NCBI GenBank assembly: GCA_020437385.1
Contig: JAGQWL010000030.1
Location: 1-41,028, forward strand
Origin: Bacteroidota bacterium
GTDB lineage: Bacteria > Bacteroidota > Rhodothermia > Rhodothermales > JABDKH01
DNA length: 41,028 nt
Direction: 5' to 3'
This document shows positions 2,081 to 24,156 of this stretch, piece after piece. The translations under genes and the position numbers were made by a program. The notes beneath the pieces are model-generated. The model ran no database searches. It was not told the origin of the DNA and saw only the letters and a program-made list of their open reading frames with translations. Within the stretch, counting starts at the first letter, position 1. Every line of letters begins with the position of its first letter.

Positions 2081-4648
2081 ATGAATCAACTGTTCCGCGT
2101 TGTTCTGCTTCTTCTGTTTGCGACTGTCGCGTTGAGCCTGTCAAACGCCGTGACTGCGCAGTCCCTTCCGTTCGATTTGCCGGTACCGTATAACACGGTG
2201 GCACGCTACGACAGCAGCGTGCCAACGCCGGAGGAGGTCATCGGCCACCGGATCGGATCCCGACACACGACACCGTCCCAGGTTGTTGCCTATTTCCGCG
2301 CTGTCGCAAACGCGAGCGACCGCGTCGTTCTCGAGGTACACGGGCAGACGTACGAGGGGAGACCGCTGATACATGCTGTCATTACCTCGGCCGACAATCA
2401 CCGGCGATTGGATGCAATTCGGCGCGACAATCTTCGCCTTGTTGAAGATCCGTCAGGGGTATCCGACGAGCAGCTTCAGAACATGCCGGCAGTATTCTAC
2501 GCTGGCTACAGTATTCACGGCAACGAGGCCACCGGCACCGAGGCGGCGGTACTCTTTCTTTATCATCTCGCTGCGGGTCGCGATTCGGAGCTGGACGATG
2601 CGTTAAACAATACCGTGATCCTTCTTGACCCGATGTTTAATCCGGACGGCCGCGATCGCTTTGTCGATTGGGTCAATCGCTGGCGCGGGGCAGTGGCAAC
2701 GACCGATCCGCAGGATCTTGAACACAACGAACCGTGGCCCGGAGGTAGGACGAATCACTACTTCTTCGATCTGAACAGAGACTGGCTGCCGGCCCAGCAG
2801 CAGGAGTCGAGAGGGCGGTTGGAGCTTTTTCACCAATGGAAGCCGCAGCTTCTGACCGACCACCACGAGATGGGTGGCAACTCGACGTTCTTTTTTCAGC
2901 CGGGAGTCCCGAGTCGGACAAATCCGAATACCCCGGCGATCAATCAACAACTGACAGAACAGATTGGCACGTACCACGCCGCAGCCCTCAACAGCTACGG
3001 CGCCCTCTATTACTCGAAACAGTCGTTTGACGACTTTTATTACGGCAAGGGTTCGACGTACCCGGATATCAACGGAAGCATCGGGATACTGTTTGAGCAG
3101 GCATCGTCCCGTGCATTGCAGACGGAGACAAACAATGGCGTCTTGACGTATGCCTTCGGAGTCCGTAACCATTTTGCGGCGTCGTTGTCATCGTTGCAGG
3201 CGTTGCAGGATATGCGCGTGGCTCTTCTGAAAAACCAGCGTGACTTTTACCGAAGTGAGACGAAATTTGCAGACGATCAGCCGATCGACGGGTACGTCAT
3301 CGAGACCGCTGCCGCCCCTCATCGCGCCGCTATTCTTCTGGACATTTTCCGCCGCCATCGGATTCAGGCGTACGTTCTCGCGTCGCATTTCGAAGCGGGA
3401 AACGAAAAGTTTGAAGCCGGAGATGCGGTCTACGTCCCGTTGAAGCAAACGCAGGGGCGGCTTGCAAAGGCAATCCTGGAGACAAGCCGCACCTTCACGG
3501 ATTCGCTCTTCTACGACGTGTCGACTTGGACGCTTCCGCTTGCTATGGACCTGAGGTATGCGGAGGTGCCAAAGCGAAAGGCGCCATCCGTCGGCAAGCA
3601 AGTTGTTCCGGAAGACGTACGAAAAGCCACGTCAGGCGTCAACGGCCGGGCGCGTTACGCCTACCTGATTCAATGGGGACCGTATGACCTGCCGGCGATG
3701 CTGTACAGGTTACTCGATAAGGGTGTGCGACTGCAGCTCATGACCGAGCCCGTTACCGTGCAGGCGGACGGACATCGTGTCGACCTCGATCGCGGCGCCG
3801 TTGTTGTGCCTGTCGCCCAACTTGATGTCCCGGTTGATTCCGTTCACGCCATGGTTCGCCGACTCGCCGATGAGTATGCTATTAAGGTGATGTCGGTCGA
3901 AACCGGCGCGACGCTGGACGGTCCGTTTCTTGGCTCGGGTTCGGCCCGTCAGATCGCGCGGCCCGAGGTAGCAATCGTGGCCGGCTCGCGTCAGAGTTCG
4001 TCGATGGTCGGCGAAGCGTGGCAATTGCTGTCGGAACGTCTTCGCATGCCGGTGTCGCTGTTGGACGTCGATGGACTTTCGTCTGACAACCTTTCGCGAT
4101 ACAACGTCATCGTTGTAGCCGGATCGGGTGCTGACGGAAAGCCGATCGCCGAGTGGGTACGATCCGGCGGAACGCTAATTACGATGGGATCCGGAACCGG
4201 TTGGGCAATGGACAATGGTCTGGCGGGTTTGAAACGAAGGCCTTTCCAGATGGACTCGGTTCTGGCTGGCGTCAGCTACGCCGATCTGGGAGATACGCGC
4301 GGCGCGCAATCGCTTGGCGGTTCAATCGTTCGGGGAGACGTTGACAACACGCACCCGGTAGCGTACGGCGTCGGCACCGTTCTGCCACTTTTCCAGCAGG
4401 GAACCGTGGTCTACGATGCCCCGGAGGAACCGGGTGCCGCGGTGGTTACGGTCAGCGACCATCCGGAGTGGAGTGGTTACTTCTCGCCTCTACACAGGGA
4501 GCTATTGCCGGGCACCATGGCGATTGCCTCGTTCCGGTCAGGTCGAGGCTCCGTCATCACGTTTGCAGGCGATCCCAATTTCCGCCAGTTCTGGTACGGA
4601 ACGAGCAGGCTGTTCGTCAATGCGGTGTTTCTCGGGTCAACACTGTAG
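2081..4648 (+). CDS. Secreted M14-family zinc metallopeptidase
   Basis: This is a predicted exported zinc carboxypeptidase of 855 aa. Residues 1-27 form a signal peptide with a hydrophobic core (VVLLLLFATVALSLS) and a cleavage site after AVTAQ. The M14 metal site is visible: H146-G-N-E149 in YSIHGNEATG, and a later histidine in TDHHEMGG (H261/H262). Glu339 in ILFEQASSRA sits where the general base is expected. NPDGRDRF (187 on) and DLNRDW (230 on) are typical of the Bacteroidota M14 group. The C-terminal half, roughly 400-855, is an accessory region that includes a class I amidotransferase-like stretch (VIVVAGSGADGKPIAEWVRS), a layout seen in long members of the family. It probably degrades peptides in the periplasm or outside the cell. 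It follows the glycerate kinase by 118 bp. Confidence 0.88.
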   Translation: MNQLFRVVLLLLFATVALSLSNAVTAQSLPFDLPVPYNTVARYDSSVPTPEEVIGHRIGSRHTTPSQVVAYFRAVANASDRVVLEVHGQTYEGRPLIHAVITSADNHRRLDAIRRDNLRLVEDPSGVSDEQLQNMPAVFYAGYSIHGNEATGTEAAVLFLYHLAAGRDSELDDALNNTVILLDPMFNPDGRDRFVDWVNRWRGAVATTDPQDLEHNEPWPGGRTNHYFFDLNRDWLPAQQQESRGRLELFHQWKPQLLTDHHEMGGNSTFFFQPGVPSRTNPNTPAINQQLTEQIGTYHAAALNSYGALYYSKQSFDDFYYGKGSTYPDINGSIGILFEQASSRALQTETNNGVLTYAFGVRNHFAASLSSLQALQDMRVALLKNQRDFYRSETKFADDQPIDGYVIETAAAPHRAAILLDIFRRHRIQAYVLASHFEAGNEKFEAGDAVYVPLKQTQGRLAKAILETSRTFTDSLFYDVSTWTLPLAMDLRYAEVPKRKAPSVGKQVVPEDVRKATSGVNGRARYAYLIQWGPYDLPAMLYRLLDKGVRLQLMTEPVTVQADGHRVDLDRGAVVVPVAQLDVPVDSVHAMVRRLADEYAIKVMSVETGATLDGPFLGSGSARQIARPEVAIVAGSRQSSSMVGEAWQLLSERLRMPVSLLDVDGLSSDNLSRYNVIVVAGSGADGKPIAEWVRSGGTLITMGSGTGWAMDNGLAGLKRRPFQMDSVLAGVSYADLGDTRGAQSLGGSIVRGDVDNTHPVAYGVGTVLPLFQQGTVVYDAPEEPGAAVVTVSDHPEWSGYFSPLHRELLPGTMAIASFRSGRGSVITFAGDPNFRQFWYGTSRLFVNAVFLGSTL

Positions 4649-4697
4649 TGGCCGATCGTCGCTACTCGTTCCGTAAGAATTGACCGGCAGCTCGCGC

Positions 4698-6740
<2,043 letters not shown>

Positions 6741-6786
6741 GTTCATACTGATTGCGCAAGGCAAACAACCATTCTGGAGGTAGGTA

Positions 6787-7977
6787 ATGCGAGAGGTATT
6801 CATCGTTTCGGCAGTTAGAAGTGCGATCGGTCACTTTGGCGGCTCGCTGAAGGATCATTCTCCCGTGGATCTGGCGGCTCCGGTCCTGAAGGCTGCCGTC
6901 GATAGAGCCGGGATCGATCCGGGCAAGCTTGATCTTGTGATTATGGGCAATATCCTTCGTGCGGGTCAAGGACAGCTCGTTCCGCGTCAGGCGGCGATGA
7001 AGGCCGGAATACCGGATCACGTTGATGGCCTTGCTGTTGACATGGTCTGTTCAAGTGGGATGTATAGTGTCATGGCTGCCGCGACGCATATTCGTGCCGG
7101 AGAAGCGGAAGCCGTACTCGCGGGCGGCACGGAGTCGATGTCGGCCAGCGGATTCTACCTGTCCTCACGTGCCCGTTGGGGCTACAAGTATCTGGCTGGC
7201 GCGCCTGAACAACTCGTCGACATTCTTCATTACGATGGCCTGACCGACCCGTTCACAGGTGAGGCCATGGGACTGCAAACGGAAAAGCTCATAGCCGAGC
7301 TGGGCATTACCCGCGGCGACATGGATGCGGTGGCGGCAGAAAGTCACCGCCGAGCCGCAGAAGCGCAGGCCGCCGGTAGGTTTTCGGATGAGATCGTCGG
7401 AATTGAATATCGAAAACGAAGAGAGATGGCGGTTCTCAGCCATGACGAAGGCGTTCGACCAGAAACGACAATCGACACGTTGTCGGGCCTGCGACCAGCG
7501 TTCTCGAAGGATGGCACGCTGACGGCGGGGAACAGCAGCCAGATAAGTGACGGTGCCGCAGCACTAATTGTGGCAAGCGGCGACTTCGTGCGCGCAAACG
7601 GCCTGACGCCGCTCGCCCGGTATGACGGCGGCACCTGGGTGGCGGGTGAACCCTACCGGTTCTCCGAAGCCCCGGTACCGGCAGTCACTCGACTTGCAGA
7701 GCGGCTCGGCTCCACGGCAGATGGATACGATCTGTACGAGAACAATGAGGCCTTTGCCCTGAACACGGTAATCATGCGGGATCGTCTCGGCATTGACGAC
7801 TCGAAACTGAATGTGAACGGTGGTGCGATCGCCCTCGGTCACCCAATCGGGTGTTCAGGCGCCAGGATCCTGGTCACCCTCATCCATGCGCTGCGTCAGC
7901 GCGACAAGGAAACCGGTATGGCCGCCATTTGTCACGGGACAGGCGGTGGCACAGCCGTAGCCGTGACTGCGGTGTAA
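6787..7977 (+). CDS. Acetyl-CoA acetyltransferase (thiolase)
   Basis: A 396-aa type II thiolase that condenses two acetyl-CoA to acetoacetyl-CoA or runs thiolysis in the reverse direction. The nucleophilic cysteine is C88 in DMVCSSGM. H352 lies in NGGAIALGHPIGCSG and the second catalytic cysteine is C382 in AAICHGTGGG. Length and motif order match the biosynthetic (AtoB/PhaA) type rather than a FadA partner, and no FadB-like subunit lies nearby. A good Shine-Dalgarno, GGAGG at 6776-6780, sits six bases before the ATG. The stop codon is only 5 bp from the stop of the convergent DUF4097 gene. Confidence 0.93.
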   Translation: MREVFIVSAVRSAIGHFGGSLKDHSPVDLAAPVLKAAVDRAGIDPGKLDLVIMGNILRAGQGQLVPRQAAMKAGIPDHVDGLAVDMVCSSGMYSVMAAATHIRAGEAEAVLAGGTESMSASGFYLSSRARWGYKYLAGAPEQLVDILHYDGLTDPFTGEAMGLQTEKLIAELGITRGDMDAVAAESHRRAAEAQAAGRFSDEIVGIEYRKRREMAVLSHDEGVRPETTIDTLSGLRPAFSKDGTLTAGNSSQISDGAAALIVASGDFVRANGLTPLARYDGGTWVAGEPYRFSEAPVPAVTRLAERLGSTADGYDLYENNEAFALNTVIMRDRLGIDDSKLNVNGGAIALGHPIGCSGARILVTLIHALRQRDKETGMAAICHGTGGGTAVAVTAV

Positions 7978-14763: not shown

Positions 14764-15612
14764 TCAGCGGATCGAATATCCTTCGATTGCGTCGATCAAT
14801 TCTGAAACGGTCCAATCAGTGTCTCTCCACGTTCGCAAGATCAAGCCGTCACCTCGAATCACGGCGACGATCAGTGGATGTGCGATCGGCTGCTCTTCAC
14901 CGGGGAAGCGACTAACTCCAAGGTAGGTGTAAACGGAATCGAGAGCGGACGAGCGTCCCGTCAGGAACGTCCACGTTCCCTCGTCTGCACCGTACCGCCG
15001 ACCATAAGCGTGAAGCACTTCTGGTGTGTCAAACTCTGGATCGACCGTAATCGACAGAAGCTCGACCCTTGACAGGCCACGCGCGGCAAGCAACGCCTGC
15101 ATCTCTTGAAACCGCGATGAAAGTAGTGGGCAGAATTCCGGCAGGGGACACCGCGTATAGACAAAATCAACGACAAGCAGGTCTGTCGCATTGCCTTCAA
15201 AGAGTGTGCGCGAGTTCAGTCGCGAATCCTCGAGTTCAATCGGCGGAACAATCTCGCCGGGAAGTAAGGTGAGCAACGCGCCCGAAGGTGTTACGCCAGG
15301 CGTAACGTCATGCGCGCCGACGACATCAAAGCGTTCGACGTTGTCAATCCAACTCGAGTCTTGCGCTACGTTGAGCGTGAAAGTAATTCCGTCGCCGATG
15401 GCGAATCGGCGCAAATCATCCGGATCGAGTGCACGAAAGGGCATGGTCATGGCCGGCATGAATCCGGGGACGTCGTCATGCGCGACAAATACAGTCACGC
15501 TGTCGTCCGCGAATCCAACCACCCGGCCACGAACCTCAAAGGATGCGTTGTTTTGACAAGCCTGCAATAACGCAGCAGCAACAAGAAGAAGGAAGGGAGT
15601 ACGTTGTCGCAA
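14764..15612 (-). CDS. SCO1/SenC-type lipoprotein with N-terminal CusF-like copper domain
   Basis: A predicted membrane-anchored copper chaperone or thiol protein for cytochrome oxidase assembly. The start is taken as the TTG at 15612, ten bases after the stop of the upstream gene. This gives 282 aa with a lipoprotein signal FLLLVAAALLQAC, lipidated at C19. Longer starts would overlap the previous gene by over 100 bp and bury the signal. Residues 27-97 resemble CusF-type copper-binding domains, including the methionine cluster MPAMTMPF (M52, M55, M57). Residues 115-282 are the SCO thioredoxin fold. The cysteines occur as C155-PLPEF-C161 instead of the classical CxxxC, a spacing I recall from CusF-SCO fusions, and H245 in IAHPLIV is the third copper ligand. 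Last gene of a three-gene minus-strand group. Confidence 0.87.
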   Translation of the reverse strand: MRQRTPFLLLVAAALLQACQNNASFEVRGRVVGFADDSVTVFVAHDDVPGFMPAMTMPFRALDPDDLRRFAIGDGITFTLNVAQDSSWIDNVERFDVVGAHDVTPGVTPSGALLTLLPGEIVPPIELEDSRLNSRTLFEGNATDLLVVDFVYTRCPLPEFCPLLSSRFQEMQALLAARGLSRVELLSITVDPEFDTPEVLHAYGRRYGADEGTWTFLTGRSSALDSVYTYLGVSRFPGEEQPIAHPLIVAVIRGDGLILRTWRDTDWTVSELIDAIEGYSIR

Positions 15613-15622
15613 AATGGATAGC

Positions 15623-17749
15623 CTAGATGCGCCAGAGCAGCTGTGCGCGGATTTCCCTGAGGCGGTTTCCAGCGACTTCGTCGAGTCCCGAACCGACTGT
15701 CTCCACGTTTTCATACCTGGTAACGGCATACTTTACCTGAAGGAGGAGATTTTGCTGCGGTTTGAAGGAGAGCATAAGATACGTTCGCTGTCCGCGGCCC
15801 GAAAACGACGGAATTGAGAACGAATACCGCAAGTCGTATTCGTATGTGAACACGCGTGCGTCGAAGCTGTCAGTGTCAAACAGCATGAGGCGTGAGTCGA
15901 GCGCGAGCGCGGGACTCACATTCCAGCGCAAGTCCTGCAGCAAGAGCGTACCGGTTGCCGTCGGTTCTTTCTCCGCAGAAAACCGCGTGACTTCAACGCG
16001 GGATCTCAGCGTGAGCTGTTTGCTGAATTCGTACTGGAGGTTGAGTCGAACGGACTGGCGTGTTTCGTCTCTCAACCCGTCGACGGTTTGGCCGGAATCG
16101 TCAACGACCGGCACGCCGCCTTCCTTTGTCTCGGACCGAGCCTGTACGTACCAGTTAAGCCAGCGTCGCGGCCGATGCTCGACCAGGAGCAGGGTCTCAT
16201 GACCGGACGAGGGCATCGGCACGCCGAATCGGATCCACGGAAAGCGGTACTGATCCATGTACGTCGAAATTACCCAGTGCCGTGCCGGCGTTACGCGAAG
16301 CCCGAGGTAGACGCCGGATTCATTTTGTGTAGCGCCACTGCTTTCCCCAAAGGCAAACGAATGGAGATTCGTAAACGATCTCGGATACCTTCGCGCTATC
16401 ATCACGGCGCGGATTCCTCGGCCGAATCGGGCAGAAGTGCCACCGAACGTCGCGACATTCCCGTCCTGATCTCGCGCGACTTCTCCGAATAGGCGAAACG
16501 TGCTTATGAACCACGATCCATACGCGCTGGCGATCCCAACGTCACGCCCCGTGAAACGGTAACGCTGATACGCTGCGTCGCCTGGAATCAACGGTTTGTC
16601 GAATTGAGATTTGTACGCAACGGCGCCGATGGAGAACTTCCCGGCGGTAAATTCAACGTTTCCGCCGAGCAGCGCCTCTGATAATGCGTCTCGCTTCGCT
16701 ATTTCCGTAGGTGTCCGGTGAAGGCCGGTATTCGTCAGGTTCACTTCTTCCAACTCCTGCTGAAGCGAATCCGACGCCGAGACCGTTGCGTCAAGAGTAC
16801 GTCGAGAGGCGAATCCTGAGACTGAAAGTGCCCGGGTCAGCCTAATGGTCGTGGCCACTCCACGCAGGAATCCGTTCTCGTCGGTCGAGCCATATGGGGT
16901 GATCCCGTTGCCAGATCGAGAGGCTGGGCCGATCACGTCGCGACCTTTTCCCGCAGACAGCCCCTTCCAGAACACCAATCCCTGGCCGAATGCCGCGACG
17001 TAGTCACCTACGACTAACGTGTGGATTCTTCCAAAATCGCGTATCGCGGCGTGCCCGGTGACATGATCATATCCCAGCGAGCCGGTGGACGGGCTCCAGT
17101 CAAGCACTTCCCCCGGGTCTTTCTCGCCAGTGAGATTGAGGCTGAGGCGCCTTCCGTAAGTTGCCCGAAGCCGCGAGTAGATGCGTTCGGGTCCCCCGAC
17201 ATACGTCGTGCGTGTTGAATCGTCCTGGTAGCCGACACCCGTGTCCAAACGCCGCGTCACACGCTGGATGACATCGAGACGAATTCCGCGGACGAGTTCT
17301 CTTACCGGCACGGGACTTGGGAATGGACTCGGGCGCTTCGTTCTCGTTTTCAGCTCCTCGCCAATCATCAGGTAAGGCCGAGCGTCCTGAAAGACGTCTT
17401 CTGTGAGTCCAGGAACGAGTTGCAGTTCCGGCAAAGACTGGAACGGTCCTCGGTTTCGCCGATAGTCGACAATTGCGAAGGCCAGACCCTCGTCAATTCC
17501 GGGAACGAGAGAAAGTTCGTCGATGGTGGCCGTGTTGACATCGAGCGGATTCTCCAACAGAAACTCAAGTGTTTCGACCAGAAGTGAGGTGTCGCCGGCG
17601 TCTTCGTCGATCGATTCGATTGCGCGCTCAATGGCTTCGGCCGCGCTCGAGTCCGGGAGGACCTGCGCGTTCGAAAGGGCGGGGGAGAAGGCCGCGAGTA
17701 CGAGGCACGTTGCGATAAGCGTCGCCGGCTGAGCGATAGATGCTCTCAT
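15623..17749 (-). CDS. Helix-hairpin-helix domain fused to an outer-membrane beta-barrel
   Basis: A 708-aa exported protein. The frame extends to a GTG at 17761, but the ATG at 17749, five bases after the upstream stop, is favoured. Residues 1-29 are a signal peptide (TLIATCLVLAAFSPALSNAQ). Residues 68-128 hold two ComEA-like helix-hairpin-helix units: PLDVNTATIDELSLVPGI with FAIVDYRRNRGPF, then LPELQLVPGL. This is the fold of periplasmic DNA-receptor ComEA. The remaining 560 residues alternate polar and hydrophobic residues with many aromatic strand ends, as in a large outer-membrane barrel, ending in LREIRAQLLWRI. Related HhH-barrel proteins occur in Bacteroidota without a proven role; DNA uptake or protein scaffolding are both possible. 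It appears translationally coupled to the PorV/PorQ-like gene and is followed by SCO after 10 bp. Confidence 0.85.
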   Translation of the reverse strand: MRASIAQPATLIATCLVLAAFSPALSNAQVLPDSSAAEAIERAIESIDEDAGDTSLLVETLEFLLENPLDVNTATIDELSLVPGIDEGLAFAIVDYRRNRGPFQSLPELQLVPGLTEDVFQDARPYLMIGEELKTRTKRPSPFPSPVPVRELVRGIRLDVIQRVTRRLDTGVGYQDDSTRTTYVGGPERIYSRLRATYGRRLSLNLTGEKDPGEVLDWSPSTGSLGYDHVTGHAAIRDFGRIHTLVVGDYVAAFGQGLVFWKGLSAGKGRDVIGPASRSGNGITPYGSTDENGFLRGVATTIRLTRALSVSGFASRRTLDATVSASDSLQQELEEVNLTNTGLHRTPTEIAKRDALSEALLGGNVEFTAGKFSIGAVAYKSQFDKPLIPGDAAYQRYRFTGRDVGIASAYGSWFISTFRLFGEVARDQDGNVATFGGTSARFGRGIRAVMIARRYPRSFTNLHSFAFGESSGATQNESGVYLGLRVTPARHWVISTYMDQYRFPWIRFGVPMPSSGHETLLLVEHRPRRWLNWYVQARSETKEGGVPVVDDSGQTVDGLRDETRQSVRLNLQYEFSKQLTLRSRVEVTRFSAEKEPTATGTLLLQDLRWNVSPALALDSRLMLFDTDSFDARVFTYEYDLRYSFSIPSFSGRGQRTYLMLSFKPQQNLLLQVKYAVTRYENVETVGSGLDEVAGNRLREIRAQLLWRI

Positions 17750-17754
17750 ACGTG

Positions 17755-18615
17755 TCACCACAGCATTGAAAGTCCTCCGGCGGGGGACCAGCCGAGAACC
17801 TCGTGCCGCTGCGCGGATATATCCACGGCCACAAGTCCGAGTCGAACGCCGGCTCCAAACGTCAGCCCCGCCGGCTGCGAAACGGCTCCCGCACGAACGT
17901 ACAACACGTCGACCGGCAGGAGCTCAATCCCGACCCGCGCAGACAAGGGATAGCCAATCTCCTGATAGGCATCGGCTGAGACCAGAAGAGGTTCCGACGG
18001 GCGGAATGCCAGTCCGACGGCAAGCGATCTCGGAAGCTCGCCGCCGTTGCCAAGGTCTGCTGCGCTGACGTTTGTTGCCGAAAAGCCAAGATCGAGTCCG
18101 CTGGCCAGTTCCACCATTCCACCAAGGCTGAAGTCAACGGCGCCTTGCGCACCGTAGCCGGCAATCGTCACGCTGCGATACGAGAGCAGCATCCCGAAAT
18201 AGGCCTTACGCATAGCGCCGAATGCGAACCCGCGTCCGTACCCAACAGAGGCATCTGTGCGGCGAAAGTCCGAAAAACCGAACGAAGAGGCGCCCAGAGA
18301 GAATGCGCCGATTGTTGTCGGCTCGATGTACTGAAACGCCGAGTATCTCAGTTCCGAAAGGCCAAATGACTGGCTGGCGAAGAATGCGAGCGATCTACCC
18401 GAGCGTGTGCCTGCGACGGCAGGGTTTCCGTCCGTCCACGCGTCTCCTCTGAGAGCGGTTGCAGCGCCACCCATCGCGGCGGCACGAGCGCCCCCGGTCA
18501 ATATCTGTCCGGTCACCGGGGACGCCGTCGACAGGATGAAAGTCGCGAGAGCGAAAGCCGCCGGCGCATTCCGGATTGCCCTGCGAAACCGAACACGGCA
18601 GTTATTGTTTATCAC
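17755..18615 (-). CDS. PorV/PorQ-like outer-membrane beta-barrel protein
   Basis: A 286-aa predicted outer-membrane protein. The frame runs up to 18675, but the GTG at 18615 gives a proper signal peptide: n-region INNNCRVRFRRAIRN, hydrophobic APAAFALATFILSTA, cleavage after PVTGQ. It also avoids overlap with the divergent DUF4835 gene. The mature N-terminus GARAAAMGGAATALRGDAW and the downstream GNPA resemble the UPF0164/PorV/PorQ group of barrels that carry or retain type IX secretion cargo. Glycine-rich amphipathic strands continue to the terminal Trp. PorV, PorQ or an unrelated FadL-like barrel cannot be told apart here. Its TGA precedes the HhH-barrel ATG by five bases, so the two are probably one operon. 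Confidence 0.78.
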   Translation of the reverse strand: MINNNCRVRFRRAIRNAPAAFALATFILSTASPVTGQILTGGARAAAMGGAATALRGDAWTDGNPAVAGTRSGRSLAFFASQSFGLSELRYSAFQYIEPTTIGAFSLGASSFGFSDFRRTDASVGYGRGFAFGAMRKAYFGMLLSYRSVTIAGYGAQGAVDFSLGGMVELASGLDLGFSATNVSAADLGNGGELPRSLAVGLAFRPSEPLLVSADAYQEIGYPLSARVGIELLPVDVLYVRAGAVSQPAGLTFGAGVRLGLVAVDISAQRHEVLGWSPAGGLSMLW

Positions 18616-18643: not shown

Positions 18644-19543
18644 ATGCGAAAGCTACGATTTCCAGTACTTCTCACGCTGCTGGCGTGTTATGCCCACGTT
18701 GTATCGGCCCAGGAGTTCGATTGTACAGTTTCGGTCGACCAGTCACAGCTTGAGGGATCGACCTCTACATTCGCGTTTCTGAAGGATCTCGCTCCCAAAC
18801 TGGAGGAGTACATCAATCGCCATCGGTGGACTGAAGACCGGTTCGAGCCTGAAGAGCGGATCGAATGCACGGTCAACATCCAGATTCTTGAATCGCTGAC
18901 GCTCACTCGATTTCGCTCAAATATCATCGTTGCCAGCAAACGTCCGATCTACGGTACTGTTCAAAACACGAACGTATTGAGGATCATCGATGAGGGGTGG
19001 GTCTTCAATTATGCCGAGGGAACGCCCATTCTTCACAACCCCGACCGCTTCGACGAACTCACGACCCTCATTGACTACTATGCGAACATCCTTCTAGCGT
19101 ACGACTACGACACGTTTGAAGAATTAGGGGGTTCGCCGTATTTCGAGGAGGCGCGTCGAATCTCCGATCTCGGGAAGAACGAGGGTGCGCTCGGCTGGGC
19201 GACTCTCGGCGGTGATCGCAGCCGCGGTGATATCGTCACCGAAATGCTGGATCCCACGTTTCGCAAACTGCGACAAGTATATTTCAAGTATCACCTTGAA
19301 GGACTTGATCGATTTGTAACAACGACGGAGGAGGCACGACAAGCCGTCTTGTCAGCACTCCAGGAAATCAAGGAACTGTCAGAAAACCGAGCGCGGTCCT
19401 ATACGATCGATCTTTTCTTCTCAGCGAAAAGCAAAGAGATCGCAGCCATCTTCAAGGACTCGCGAGAAAGTGTTGCAGCGTATGATCTTTTGGCAGAGAT
19501 CGATACCGCCCACCTTTCAGATTACAACTCCCTTGTCGACTAG
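18644..19543 (+). CDS. DUF4835 family protein (PorD-like, type IX secretion associated)
   Basis: A 299-aa exported protein. The frame is open from 18407, but the ATG at 18644 begins a clear signal peptide, MRKLRFPVLLTLLACYAHVV followed by SAQ, with a mature start at EFDC. The body matches DUF4835: a segment of the form KDLAPKLEEYINRHRWTEDR early on, then ESLTLTRFRSNIIVASKRPI, IDYYANILLAYDYDTFEELG, and a C-terminal AKSKEIAAIFKDS. The family is conserved across Bacteroidota and has been linked with type IX secretion and gliding under the name PorD; its biochemical activity is not known to me. Only 28 bp separate it from the divergent PorV/PorQ-like gene, so the promoters must overlap or lie inside coding sequence. 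Confidence 0.88.
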   Translation: MRKLRFPVLLTLLACYAHVVSAQEFDCTVSVDQSQLEGSTSTFAFLKDLAPKLEEYINRHRWTEDRFEPEERIECTVNIQILESLTLTRFRSNIIVASKRPIYGTVQNTNVLRIIDEGWVFNYAEGTPILHNPDRFDELTTLIDYYANILLAYDYDTFEELGGSPYFEEARRISDLGKNEGALGWATLGGDRSRGDIVTEMLDPTFRKLRQVYFKYHLEGLDRFVTTTEEARQAVLSALQEIKELSENRARSYTIDLFFSAKSKEIAAIFKDSRESVAAYDLLAEIDTAHLSDYNSLVD

Positions 19544-19847: not shown

Positions 19848-20003
19848 GCGAGTCGCATCATATTCTTGTCGCGTTACAGGGTTCCCGAGCGCGATGTTCG
19901 AACGAAATCCAAGGTATGGGGGCTGCAAGTAGCTTAGATTTGCTCTGCAACTGTCAATTATCGCTTATTGGTCCCATGTATATGGGTCGGCATGGAGGAG
20001 GCA

Positions 20004-22250
20004 ATGATCACAAGAGGCGGTCACATCCAACTATTTCTCGGCCTCGTGCTCACTTACGCACTCGGCGCAGGCTGTTCTGCACCCCGTGAGACGGTACAGA
20101 TTACCGAGAGGGCACCCATCGTCGAGCGCGCACCGAACACAGAACAGCGCTCGAATGAAACAACATCTCGCAGGGTTTATGAATCGAGCGCCGAAACGGC
20201 TTCACCTGGTGTCGCGAGCGGACGGTTTGATCGTGGCAAGATGTGGACGTTCGATGATCCGCCGCTTGAGTATTTCAAGGAAGCGTATGGGTTTGATCCC
20301 GGTCAACGATGGTTTGACAAGGCTCGGTTGAGTGCCCTCAGGTTCGCAACGTACTGCTCTGCAAGCTTTGTCTCCGCAGATGGCCTCGTTTTGACGAACC
20401 ATCACTGCGGGCGTGAAAGTGTTACGAAAGTGTCAAAACCAGGCGAAGACCTTCTCGACAACGGCTTTTACGCCGAGAGCCTCGACGACGAACGCAAGGT
20501 TGATGGACTGTTTGTCGATCAACTGATCTCAATCTCTGACGTCACCGACCGCGTGTACAAGGGCGTAGATGAAGATGCGCCGGCCGACCAGCAAGTTGCC
20601 AGTCGCGAGACAAACCGCACAAAGGTTGAGGAGGAAATGACGAACGCCGTTCAAAAGCAGGACACGCTGCTTTCGGTGCAGGTGATCGAACTCTATAACG
20701 GCGGTAAATATTCCGCGTACACGTTCCGGAGGTACCACGACGTTCGCCTGGTGATGGCTCCTGAGCTCCAAATCGGGTTCTTCGGCGGCGACTGGGACAA
20801 CTTCACGTATCCCAGATACAACCTCGACATGAGTTTCTTCCGGGTTTACGATGCCGACGGAGAACCGCTGCGTCCAGAGAACTATTTCAGGTGGTCGGCA
20901 GGCGGGGCTCGCGAAGGTGATCTGACTTTCGTTATCGGTAATCCCGGCTCGACGAGCCGACTCTCCACAGTGGCCCAGCTCGAGTTCGAAAGAGACGCAG
21001 CGCTGCCTCAGGCCATACGCGTCATCAAATCCAGAAGTGCGGTGCTCAAGTCCTTCATCGACACGGATCCAGTTGCCGCAGACTCGCTGGATCTCAGGAA
21101 TACCTGGTTTTCGCTCGAGAACTCATTGAAAGCGAACGAGGGACAACTGTCAGGCCTCGAAGACGAGGCCTTCATGGCGCGTAAGCGGGCCGGGGATGAG
21201 AAGCTTTCGGCGGCCATCCGGGCGGACTCGTCGACAGCGCGGTACCGCGACGTTTTTGACAAGATCGCGGATATCCAGATCTCAAAGCGTGCAGTCGCGA
21301 ACCAGTCGGGTGCCTTCACTTACTTCTCATCCGACGTGATGACATCCCACATTCTGTTGCGGGGACTCTACGGCTATATCGCTGACATTCTCAAACAGCG
21401 CGGTGCGCCTGAGAGTCGCGTGGACGAAATGAAGAAGGGCGGTCTCGGCGTGTCGGACTGGCCAGCGCAAGTAGAACAAGGCTACATCTCCGCCAGACTC
21501 GCTGAACTACGCGACTACCTTGGCGCCGAGCATCCGACGGTTCGTGCAATCCTGAAGGGCAGCTCGCCGGATTCGGTTGCCGCGCGTCTCGTTCGAGAAA
21601 CATCAATTGCAGACTCGTCCGGCTTTGCGGCTGCCCTCGAGAGCGGCTATCTCGCATCTGGCGATGTTACTGTTCCCGTCGTTCAGTCGCTCGCCGAACT
21701 GTACTTCTCGCTGGGTCAGCAGCTCGGGCAGTTCGAAGACTCCGAAAAAAACTTGAACGCACAGCTTGGTCGTGCGCAGTTTGCTGTATACGGAACGGAG
21801 GTCCCGCCAGACGCCTCGTTCTCGCTTCGCATTGCCGACGGCGTCATATCAGGTTACCAGTACAATGGGACGAAGGCGCCGATCTATACAACGTTTTACG
21901 GGATGTACGACCGGTTTCATTCGTTCGAAGGGGATAAGGATTGGACGTTGCCTAAACGCTGGACACCCGCACCGGCTGCACTCGATCTTTCTACGCCCGT
22001 TAACATCATCTCGACTAACGACATCACCGGTGGGAATTCCGGCTCTCCAATGGTGAATCGGAACCTGGAAATCGTTGGTTTGGTGTTCGACAGCAATATC
22101 GAGGCGCTCCCGAACGAGTACATGTACCTCGATGAAACGGGACGGACCATCTCCGTTGATTCAAGAGGTATTGTCGAGGCAATCCAGAGTGTTTATGGCG
22201 CAACTCGCCTCGCGAACGAACTGCGCGGGGGCGAATTGGGATCGAAGTAA
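20004..22250 (+). CDS. S46 family dipeptidyl peptidase, lipoprotein or exported
   Basis: A 748-aa serine exopeptidase of the DPP7/DPP11 family, which removes dipeptides from peptide N-termini in the periplasm or at the cell surface. The frame opens at a TTG (19968), but GGAGGAG directly before the ATG at 20004 decides the start. Residues 1-24 (IQLFLGLVLTYALGAGC) look like a signal with possible lipidation at C24, followed by a Glu/Arg/Thr-rich linker to about residue 70. The trypsin-like catalytic histidine is H134 in LTNHHCG and the serine is S679 in GGNSGSPMVN. S697 in VFDSNIEAL falls where DPP7 has Gly and DPP11 has Arg in the S1 pocket, so substrate preference cannot be read off directly. 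Stop codon 22 bp from the convergent metalloenzyme gene. Confidence 0.92.
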   Translation: MITRGGHIQLFLGLVLTYALGAGCSAPRETVQITERAPIVERAPNTEQRSNETTSRRVYESSAETASPGVASGRFDRGKMWTFDDPPLEYFKEAYGFDPGQRWFDKARLSALRFATYCSASFVSADGLVLTNHHCGRESVTKVSKPGEDLLDNGFYAESLDDERKVDGLFVDQLISISDVTDRVYKGVDEDAPADQQVASRETNRTKVEEEMTNAVQKQDTLLSVQVIELYNGGKYSAYTFRRYHDVRLVMAPELQIGFFGGDWDNFTYPRYNLDMSFFRVYDADGEPLRPENYFRWSAGGAREGDLTFVIGNPGSTSRLSTVAQLEFERDAALPQAIRVIKSRSAVLKSFIDTDPVAADSLDLRNTWFSLENSLKANEGQLSGLEDEAFMARKRAGDEKLSAAIRADSSTARYRDVFDKIADIQISKRAVANQSGAFTYFSSDVMTSHILLRGLYGYIADILKQRGAPESRVDEMKKGGLGVSDWPAQVEQGYISARLAELRDYLGAEHPTVRAILKGSSPDSVAARLVRETSIADSSGFAAALESGYLASGDVTVPVVQSLAELYFSLGQQLGQFEDSEKNLNAQLGRAQFAVYGTEVPPDASFSLRIADGVISGYQYNGTKAPIYTTFYGMYDRFHSFEGDKDWTLPKRWTPAPAALDLSTPVNIISTNDITGGNSGSPMVNRNLEIVGLVFDSNIEALPNEYMYLDETGRTISVDSRGIVEAIQSVYGATRLANELRGGELGSK

Positions 22251-23196: not shown

Positions 23197-24156
23197 CTAT
23201 TGCCGTTTTCTCGAACTCGACAATGCCGCCAGTACCCATTCGTCGTCTGTCGCACCTACGAGCGGATGCACGTCAGGTCTGTCGGGCGTTTTGTCGCCCA
23301 GAATGAACAACGGAATATGCCGATCGCGGCAGAAGTCGGCCAGCATCTGAAAGTGCGTGTTTTCGGATGCAGGCCGTTCCGACGATGCGCAGTACACTAC
23401 CACAGTGCCCAACGCCGCCATGAGCGCGTCGCGGTGGGCAAGATCATGGTCAAACGGACCATGCACCATATCAAACGGCGAGACGAGTGCTCCGCCGCTT
23501 CGAACGATTTGCGTTGCTGTCGAACGGAAGGTAGGGTCGATGCGCGCGAGTCCGCTGTCGCAGACACCAACGGACGATGGACCTCCTTGTCCCGCAGAGG
23601 CGATGGCTATCTTTGACAGCACCACGTCTGCGCCTGGCCTTGTCCCGGTCATGATCGGATACCCACTCGTCATCACCGTTCTGGCGAGGCGCTGGAGATG
23701 CTCGAACGAATCGGCGGAGAGCGAACCGCCGTCAACGACAAACGTGGCAGCGGTTGAACTGCCCAATACCTCCGTGTCACCGTAAAGGAACAGAATTGGC
23801 GACGAATACCTGCCTTGGAGACGCTGCATCCGATCCGAAACCATCGGATGCGCGGCCGTAACAACCTCAATACGCTTCTCCTGCAGTTCCAACAGTTCTC
23901 GCTCGGCTGCCCGACGCAATTCAGCGATCAAGGAGGCGTCCAGAATACGGGCCGCCAGCGTCGCGGCCCCGGGTATGCCGCGAAGCCGGACCAATACCTG
24001 CTCGAGCGGACATTCCTGCAGTTCTTCAAGACTATCGTACGAGCGCAGCAGCTTCGTCACGCCAACCGCCCCGAGACCATCAATCTGCCTGAGGGTAATG
24101 GCAAGTACGGCGTTGGCGTCTGACGGTCGGCCCGACTGGTCTGAGGAGTTTTGCAT
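23197..24156 (-). CDS. Divergent DprA/Smf-like protein
   Basis: A 319-aa protein with the general layout of DprA: an N-terminal helix-hairpin-helix-like segment (LRQIDGLGAVGVTKLL, residues 22-37) and a Rossmann-like domain beginning at SSPILFLYGDTEVL. The usual DprA signatures are absent. Where GSR is expected there is DGGS. MTGTRPGADVVL stands in place of SGLAxGID. HRDALMAALGTVVVYCA stands where FPxRNRIIAGL and the VVEA strand would be. It could be a DprA paralogue with a changed ligand site or another LOG/Smf-fold protein. Canonical DprA loads RecA onto incoming single-stranded DNA; whether this one does is open. It diverges from the patatin gene and is followed by the metalloenzyme. Confidence 0.65.
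   Translation of the reverse strand: MQNSSDQSGRPSDANAVLAITLRQIDGLGAVGVTKLLRSYDSLEELQECPLEQVLVRLRGIPGAATLAARILDASLIAELRRAAERELLELQEKRIEVVTAAHPMVSDRMQRLQGRYSSPILFLYGDTEVLGSSTAATFVVDGGSLSADSFEHLQRLARTVMTSGYPIMTGTRPGADVVLSKIAIASAGQGGPSSVGVCDSGLARIDPTFRSTATQIVRSGGALVSPFDMVHGPFDHDLAHRDALMAALGTVVVYCASSERPASENTHFQMLADFCRDRHIPLFILGDKTPDRPDVHPLVGATDDEWVLAALSSSRKRQ

Follow-up and report, generated by a model that had tools for sequence, protein, structure and literature searches.

A predicted outer membrane barrel with a non-canonical helix-hairpin-helix domain and its FadL/PorV-fold partner may form a DNA entry gate in Bacteroidota

Natural transformation is known in Bacteroidota, and the step at which DNA crosses the outer membrane there lacks an assigned protein. 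In Porphyromonas gingivalis, according to PMC11532111, DNA entry into the periplasm "remains unclear," and no type II or type IV secretion system has been found. A stretch of 41,028 nucleotides from a Bacteroidota bacterium (contig JAGQWL010000030.1 of assembly GCA_020437385.1; hereafter the window) raises the question of whether such a protein is encoded there. One gene, here called Q, joins a helix-hairpin-helix (HhH) domain of the ComEA type to a long predicted β-barrel and lies directly behind a second barrel gene, P. Gene neighbours and distribution suggest that P and Q may form the DNA entry gate in Bacteroidota. We consider it about an even chance that the pair is a non-secretin outer membrane DNA uptake port of natural transformation in this phylum, with the HhH domain as a remodelled docking domain. 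The features on which this reading is built are as follows.

15623..17749, minus strand: gene Q, an open frame of 708 aa from the ATG at 17749
17663..17749, minus strand: predicted signal peptide of Q, residues ~1-29, a hydrophobic stretch ending ...SNAQ, read by eye from the sequence
17357..17545, minus strand: HHH_3 (ComEA-type) domain of Q (PF12836), residues 69-131, two hairpins, net charge -6, with D86 and T116 replacing hairpin glycines
15626..17302, minus strand: β-barrel domain of Q, residues 150-708, with 24 strands predicted in the AlphaFold2 model
17755..18615, minus strand: gene P, 286 aa, a predicted 14-strand FadL/PorV-fold barrel with a GTG start at 18615, directly upstream of Q

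The frame of Q is open over 15623-17761 (minus strand), and an in-frame GTG at 17761 is an alternative start that would give 712 aa. The stop codon of P occupies 17755-17757, leaving 5 nt before the Q ATG, the spacing given in a preliminary description of the locus. That description also placed a signal peptide, HhH sequence and a barrel of about 560 residues in one chain, an arrangement borne out by the sequence, the Pfam matches and the 24-strand prediction; its "two HhH units" are indeed two hairpins, which together make up one HHH_3 domain. A separate gene joining CusF copper-binding and SCO1/SenC domains (14764-15729, minus strand) has a listed 5' end that overlaps the 3' end of Q.

Structure prediction of the 708-aa chain, proposed in the preliminary description, gave a confident barrel. 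The AlphaFold2 model, built from a 23-sequence alignment, has a mean predicted local distance difference test score (pLDDT) of 85.4 and a predicted template modelling score (pTM) of 0.83, with 24 long strands counted in residues 157-707 as a single domain; residues 6-20 form a helix of low confidence. We regard the barrel as predicted with good confidence. Conserved motifs in it are KDPGE (210-214), GxGQG (253-257 region), HRT (344-346) and GSG (686-688), and its net charge is positive in 21 of the 23 sequences, which we count in favour of a DNA port. FimD ushers are 24-strand barrels, and VIA-align aligned the whole Q barrel with them at a root mean square deviation (rmsd) of 3.5-4.0 over 366-380 residues (Z 13.5-14.3). 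The top VIA rows were partial matches to Wzi (Z 17.6), AlgE and OprD-like barrels, covering ~270-311 residues, and Foldseek returned generic barrels only, with a best template modelling score of ~0.4. Neither search identified a solved relative, though families outside their listing may hold one. Among the Pfam hits to Q with E<=10 there was no secretin domain (PF00263), and no SprA domain was listed.

The AlphaFold2 model of P is a 14-strand barrel (pLDDT 89.1; pTM 0.81). It aligns with FadL (Z 30.6, rmsd 2.1, 243 residues), with PorV of the type IX translocon (8gl6_F; Z 29.4, rmsd 2.2, 244 residues) and with chains of Bacteroidota β-barrel assembly machinery (BAM) complexes (Z 25-27). With 14 strands, an N-terminal helical part and a whole-chain match, modelled P has the FadL/PorV fold. 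Membership of the PorV/PorQ family is another matter: on NF033709 (PorV_fam) P scores 20.7 bits, under the curated cut-off of 90, and a P homologue beside comEC (locus L108) scores 53.5 bits. The gene immediately before Q is P in 51 of 54 loci in a set where close relatives are over-represented, and in 11 of 20 in a more diverse set.

Does the HhH domain make Q a DNA receptor? PF12836 matches Q residues 72-131 with an E value of 2.4e-16 (60 bits against a cut-off of 27), and the domain is shared with ComEA in length and register, as is an export signal. The HhH domain of Tex (3bzc) aligns with it at a Z of 13.3 over 72 residues, with 31% identity. The G-h-G sequence is the DNA-binding hairpin motif of HhH domains. 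It is broken in both hairpins of the window's Q (G84/D86 and G114/T116), and across the phylum Q relatives retain it in 0/47 first hairpins and 2/46 second hairpins, a count that covers Q proteins encoded next to comEC as well (L047, L048, L108-L111, L147, L148). Small ComEA-like proteins, read from their sequences, have [IV]GP at hairpin 1 and GIG at hairpin 2 in 21/21 cases. The domain in the window is also acidic, with 10 acidic and 4 basic residues. Its mean charge is -1.3 in Q of close relatives (28 domains) and +0.35 in Q of loci L034-L087 (51 domains), compared with +2.8 in 21 small ComEA-like proteins from the same genome group; our hairpin table gives a mean of -1.2 over 48 rows, including one empty row (a frameshifted L034 fragment) and one misaligned row (L119). 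As some Q domains reach +8, charge alone is not decisive, and it is the hairpin motif that carries the argument against identity with ComEA.

The curated comEA models point the same way for Q, which scores 35.1 bits on TIGR01259 (cut-off 152.35) and 32.2 bits on TIGR00426 (cut-off 53.1) and carries some 560 barrel residues that ComEA does not have. The window's genome encodes a separate ComEA-like protein of 214 aa (contig C295; L032:2845-3489), which itself misses both cut-offs (69.7 and 50.5 bits, respectively). In PMC11532111, deletion of the small ComEA PGN_0421 of P. gingivalis is reported to abolish competence. Because a small ComEA is present in the window's own genome and one is essential in P. 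gingivalis, we take the ComEA role to be filled by another protein. The HhH domain of Q was thus rejected as a ComEA, its hairpin motifs being lost phylum-wide and the domain being acidic in the window. Its surface fails the check named in the preliminary description, that of positively charged DNA-binding loops, and the proposal that the same chain supplies ComEA function is not supported. On this evidence Q reads as a "pore with a non-canonical HhH domain" rather than as a pore and receptor in one chain.

One genomic link between P-Q and DNA uptake is an operon with comEC. This operon is found in a family (f20) that is probably Sphingobacteriaceae, judging from its named members. Q is present in 61 of its 91 sampled genomes, and in 61/61 the Q match is followed on the same strand, at a distance of 642-889 bp, by a ComEC domain. 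In four loci read individually (L108, L109, L110 and L111) the gap between Q and comEC was +2, +6, +5 and -7 nt, respectively. The order was P-Q-comEC in the first three; L111 had Q-comEC, with P not found by the gene model. In Paradesertivirga mongoliensis (Sphingobacteriaceae; L048) the genes overlap, with P at 4121-4924, Q at 4917-6959 and the comEC frame starting at 6959, and a Sphingobacteriales metagenome-assembled genome (L047) has the same order. The core of the operon is constant while its flanks vary: L111 lacks the MerR and DUF4412 genes that flank L109. Damage is also shared between P-Q and comEC. In one genome (G253) Q is gone and ComEC lacks its first 141 residues; in another (G264) P was not found and comEC is frameshifted. 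We count this shared damage in favour of a DNA port. The remaining 16 diverse loci that were read (L112-L127) have no comEC adjacent to Q.

Two genome samples were used for distribution: 40 relatives of the window's genome and 198 genomes from across the phylum. The window's genome carries comEC, a check put forward in the preliminary description. A Q match at E<=1e-3 was present in 37 of the 40 relatives, 34 over the barrel and 3 (G008, G022 and G032) over the HhH domain only. These three form family f4, which has no strong Q match and in which ComEC scores 110-143 bits, compared with 185-235 bits in others. In family f15 of the window's order (G019, G029 and G038) Q, the small ComEA match and ComEC are all absent in 3/3 genomes; DprA matches there are weak in G019 (28 bits) and G029 (42 bits) and reach 178 bits in G038. 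Across the phylum the Q barrel model matched 167/198 genomes, some of the matches being weak or partial, while ComEC was found in 197/198 and SprA in 154/198. The 44 genomes in which SprA is missing, 43 from family f25 plus G041, all carry both Q and ComEC, and G019 has SprA and neither ComEC nor Q. Hence, Q follows ComEC in its distribution rather than the type IX translocon, and co-occurrence with SprA, as expected of a type IX component, was not found.

The profile of secretins is mixed, so that an argument of the form "no secretin, hence Q" holds for some families only. A secretin match was obtained in 29 of the 40 relatives; by their size, many of these matches may belong to other pili. 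Seven genomes of families f3, f10 and f14 have Q and ComEC with no secretin match, which favours a DNA port. A PilQ/secretin port would perform the same proposed step as P-Q, the passage of DNA across the outer membrane; Q differs in having no secretin domain.

A further line of evidence comes from Riemerella anatipestifer. PMC8459023 reports that RA0C_RS04915, an outer membrane protein with a carboxypeptidase-regulatory domain, and the adjacent RS04920 (DUF5689) are essential for transformation, as are ComEC, DprA, ComF, RecA, a DUF1343 protein and a separate HhH protein (RS02645). The authors propose that RS04915/RS04920 bind DNA and carry it through the outer membrane. With a strong DUF5689 match set at >=147 bits, 27/198 genomes had one, comprising 22 of 31 without Q versus 5 of 167 with Q (Fisher P = 1.4e-17, uncorrected for phylogeny). 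Family f28, with the pair in 17/18 Q-less genomes, accounts for the bulk of this effect; on its removal the contrast was 5/13 versus 5/167 (P = 1.8e-4, uncorrected for descent). Nine Q-less genomes have no strong DUF5689 match, including G019, which is also ComEC-less. Our equation with the Riemerella pair rests on domain content and gene order, not on the RS04915 sequence: the DUF5689 gene lies behind a gene for an 850-954-aa protein in 10 of 11 loci read, and 3 of 5 such proteins tested had a carboxypeptidase-regulatory domain. An endonuclease/exonuclease/phosphatase-family gene occurs near the pair in 8 of 11 loci (L149-L159; one identified by Pfam PF19580, E 6.7e-100), and a nuclease-family neighbour would suit a role in extracellular DNA handling. 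Clusters beside comEC in Flavobacteriaceae-like genomes were also considered as RS04915/RS04920 and rejected, as Pfam identified them as dipeptidyl peptidases and POT transporters; the real pair was located elsewhere via DUF5689.

The Riemerella proteins and P-Q are alike in being two adjacent envelope proteins, and the former occur mostly where Q is missing. They differ in that the Riemerella pair consists of a CarboxypepD_reg barrel and a DUF5689 protein with no HhH domain, and in that mutant phenotypes exist for that pair whereas P-Q is known from sequence. It is conceivable, at somewhat less than even odds, that P-Q is the ancestral DNA uptake port of Bacteroidota, non-secretin and pilus independent, and was later replaced by the RS04915/RS04920 pair in Flavobacteriaceae-like lineages.

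How might such a port work? Double-stranded DNA would cross the outer membrane through the wide, predicted 24-strand barrel of Q. P would dock to Q or gate it, as PorV docks to SprA. The DNA would then be handed to a separate periplasmic ComEA, which could be the C295 protein in the window's genome, and would pass the inner membrane via ComEC. Q's HhH domain is derived from a ComEA-type domain; with the DNA-binding hairpins lost, a periplasmic docking or plug module is the more likely role for it. What the analysis shows directly extends to the gene structure, the predicted folds, the loss of the hairpin motif, the P-Q-comEC operon in one family and the distribution patterns; DNA as the substrate, binding between P and Q, the direction of transport and the role of the HhH domain are inferred. 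Of the compact outer membrane DNA port envisaged in the preliminary description, the predicted barrel and the genomic link to DNA uptake (operon and joint absence) stand, and the ComEA receptor part falls.

Several observations weigh against a DNA port. The HhH domain of Q does not have the look of a DNA-binding domain, and closure of the Q barrel is judged by strand count in a predicted model, coordinates aside. P was not found by the gene model beside Q in 9 of the 20 diverse loci. Within f20, 30 of 91 genomes have comEC without Q, and a genus-level lineage (g84; L141-L143) shows a natural loss of P and Q, comEC being retained immediately behind MerR. The P-Q-comEC operon represents one lineage and probably one event, and its surroundings often hold alaS, MerR and DUF4412 genes as well; the linkage is therefore good, but does not amount to many-fold independent evidence. 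Across the phylum, ComEC is kept without a Q match in at least 30/198 genomes, 8 of which also have no strong DUF5689 pair, and as ComEC is present in 197/198 genomes, co-occurrence alone says little. One genome (G026, a fragmented assembly of 530 contigs) has Q but no ComEC match. A secretin match is present in the window's own genome. Within the window P-Q has no competence gene beside it, and the divergent neighbour of P is a type IX secretion gene:

18644..19543, plus strand: porD (DUF4835), likely ATG at 18644, 28 bp from the P start; NF052317 (T9SS_PorD) 269.6 bits against a cut-off of 170; PF16119

The nearest DprA-like item in the window is a weak paralogue ~5.6 kb away. This gene (23197-24156, minus strand) encodes 319 aa with a weak DprA domain (PF02481, 40 bits against a cut-off of 29.6), the true DprA being on contig C398. 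A second DprA-like gene lies ~6-21 kb from Q in several relatives (G000, G006, G020, G013, G034, G025, G035 and G011). Elsewhere in the window, 19968-22250 (plus strand) encodes a Peptidase S46 family protein (617 bits). A neighbour near DUF4835 in Bacteroidales, at first guessed to be RecN, proved to be a HEAT-repeat cyclophilin.

It is also possible that P-Q is a small export channel for protein or polymer, with SprA-PorV-like logic, which serves or descends from type IX secretion. The PorV/FadL fold predicted for P, the divergent porD gene and the DUF4835-family genes that occur in 16 of 41 P-Q neighbourhoods, in Rhodothermia-like and Bacteroidales-like families, would all suit such a channel, and SprA-PorV likewise consists of a large barrel with a PorV-fold partner. 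SprA, however, has 36 strands, compared with the 24 predicted for Q, and SprA_N is absent in 44 genomes, all of which keep Q, while G019 has SprA without Q. P falls far below the cut-off of the PorV/PorQ model. Moreover, the fold of P is not specific, since FadL, TodX and BAM-complex chains equal or nearly equal PorV as matches to it. We consider an export channel unlikely.

We also judge it improbable, to a similar degree, that P-Q is a general outer membrane transporter or envelope maintenance pair, handling lipid, glycan or nutrient, and that its linkage to comEC is inherited synteny without function. P is closest to the hydrocarbon channels FadL and TodX (Z ~30), which it resembles in its 14 strands and N-terminal helices; at 286 aa it is shorter than these and is operon-linked to Q. 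The best partial matches of Q are Wzi and AlgE, both carbohydrate-related barrels (Z 16-17.6 over ~270-311 residues), and Q is widely kept. A transporter of this kind would, however, leave unexplained the joint absence of Q with ComEC and ComEA in f15, the complementarity with the Riemerella pair and the shared damage in G253 and G264.

The weakest alternative is that of the preliminary description, in which one chain is both ComEA receptor and pore and its HhH domain binds incoming DNA: the HHH_3 match, the presence of comEC in the genome and the comEC linkage in another family would fit, but hairpin motifs are lost phylum-wide, the window's domain is acidic, the genome has a separate ComEA-like protein and the small ComEA of P. 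gingivalis is essential (PMC11532111), which makes it very improbable.

A survey of the open-access literature, subscription papers and preprints aside, gave no functional assignment for this family of HhH barrels or for its association with P, and no binding or mutant data for Q. BT3167 of Bacteroides thetaiotaomicron appears once, in a table of PMC10434189, as a "Helix-hairpin-helix domain-containing protein." As a DNA uptake port, P-Q offers a concrete target: one family has it in an operon with comEC, another lacks it along with ComEC and ComEA, and its distribution complements that of the sole outer membrane pair backed by mutant evidence. If this reading is true, HhH proteins that are annotated by domain name alone would be markers of the DNA gate in a large phylum whose members include gut, oral and marine bacteria.

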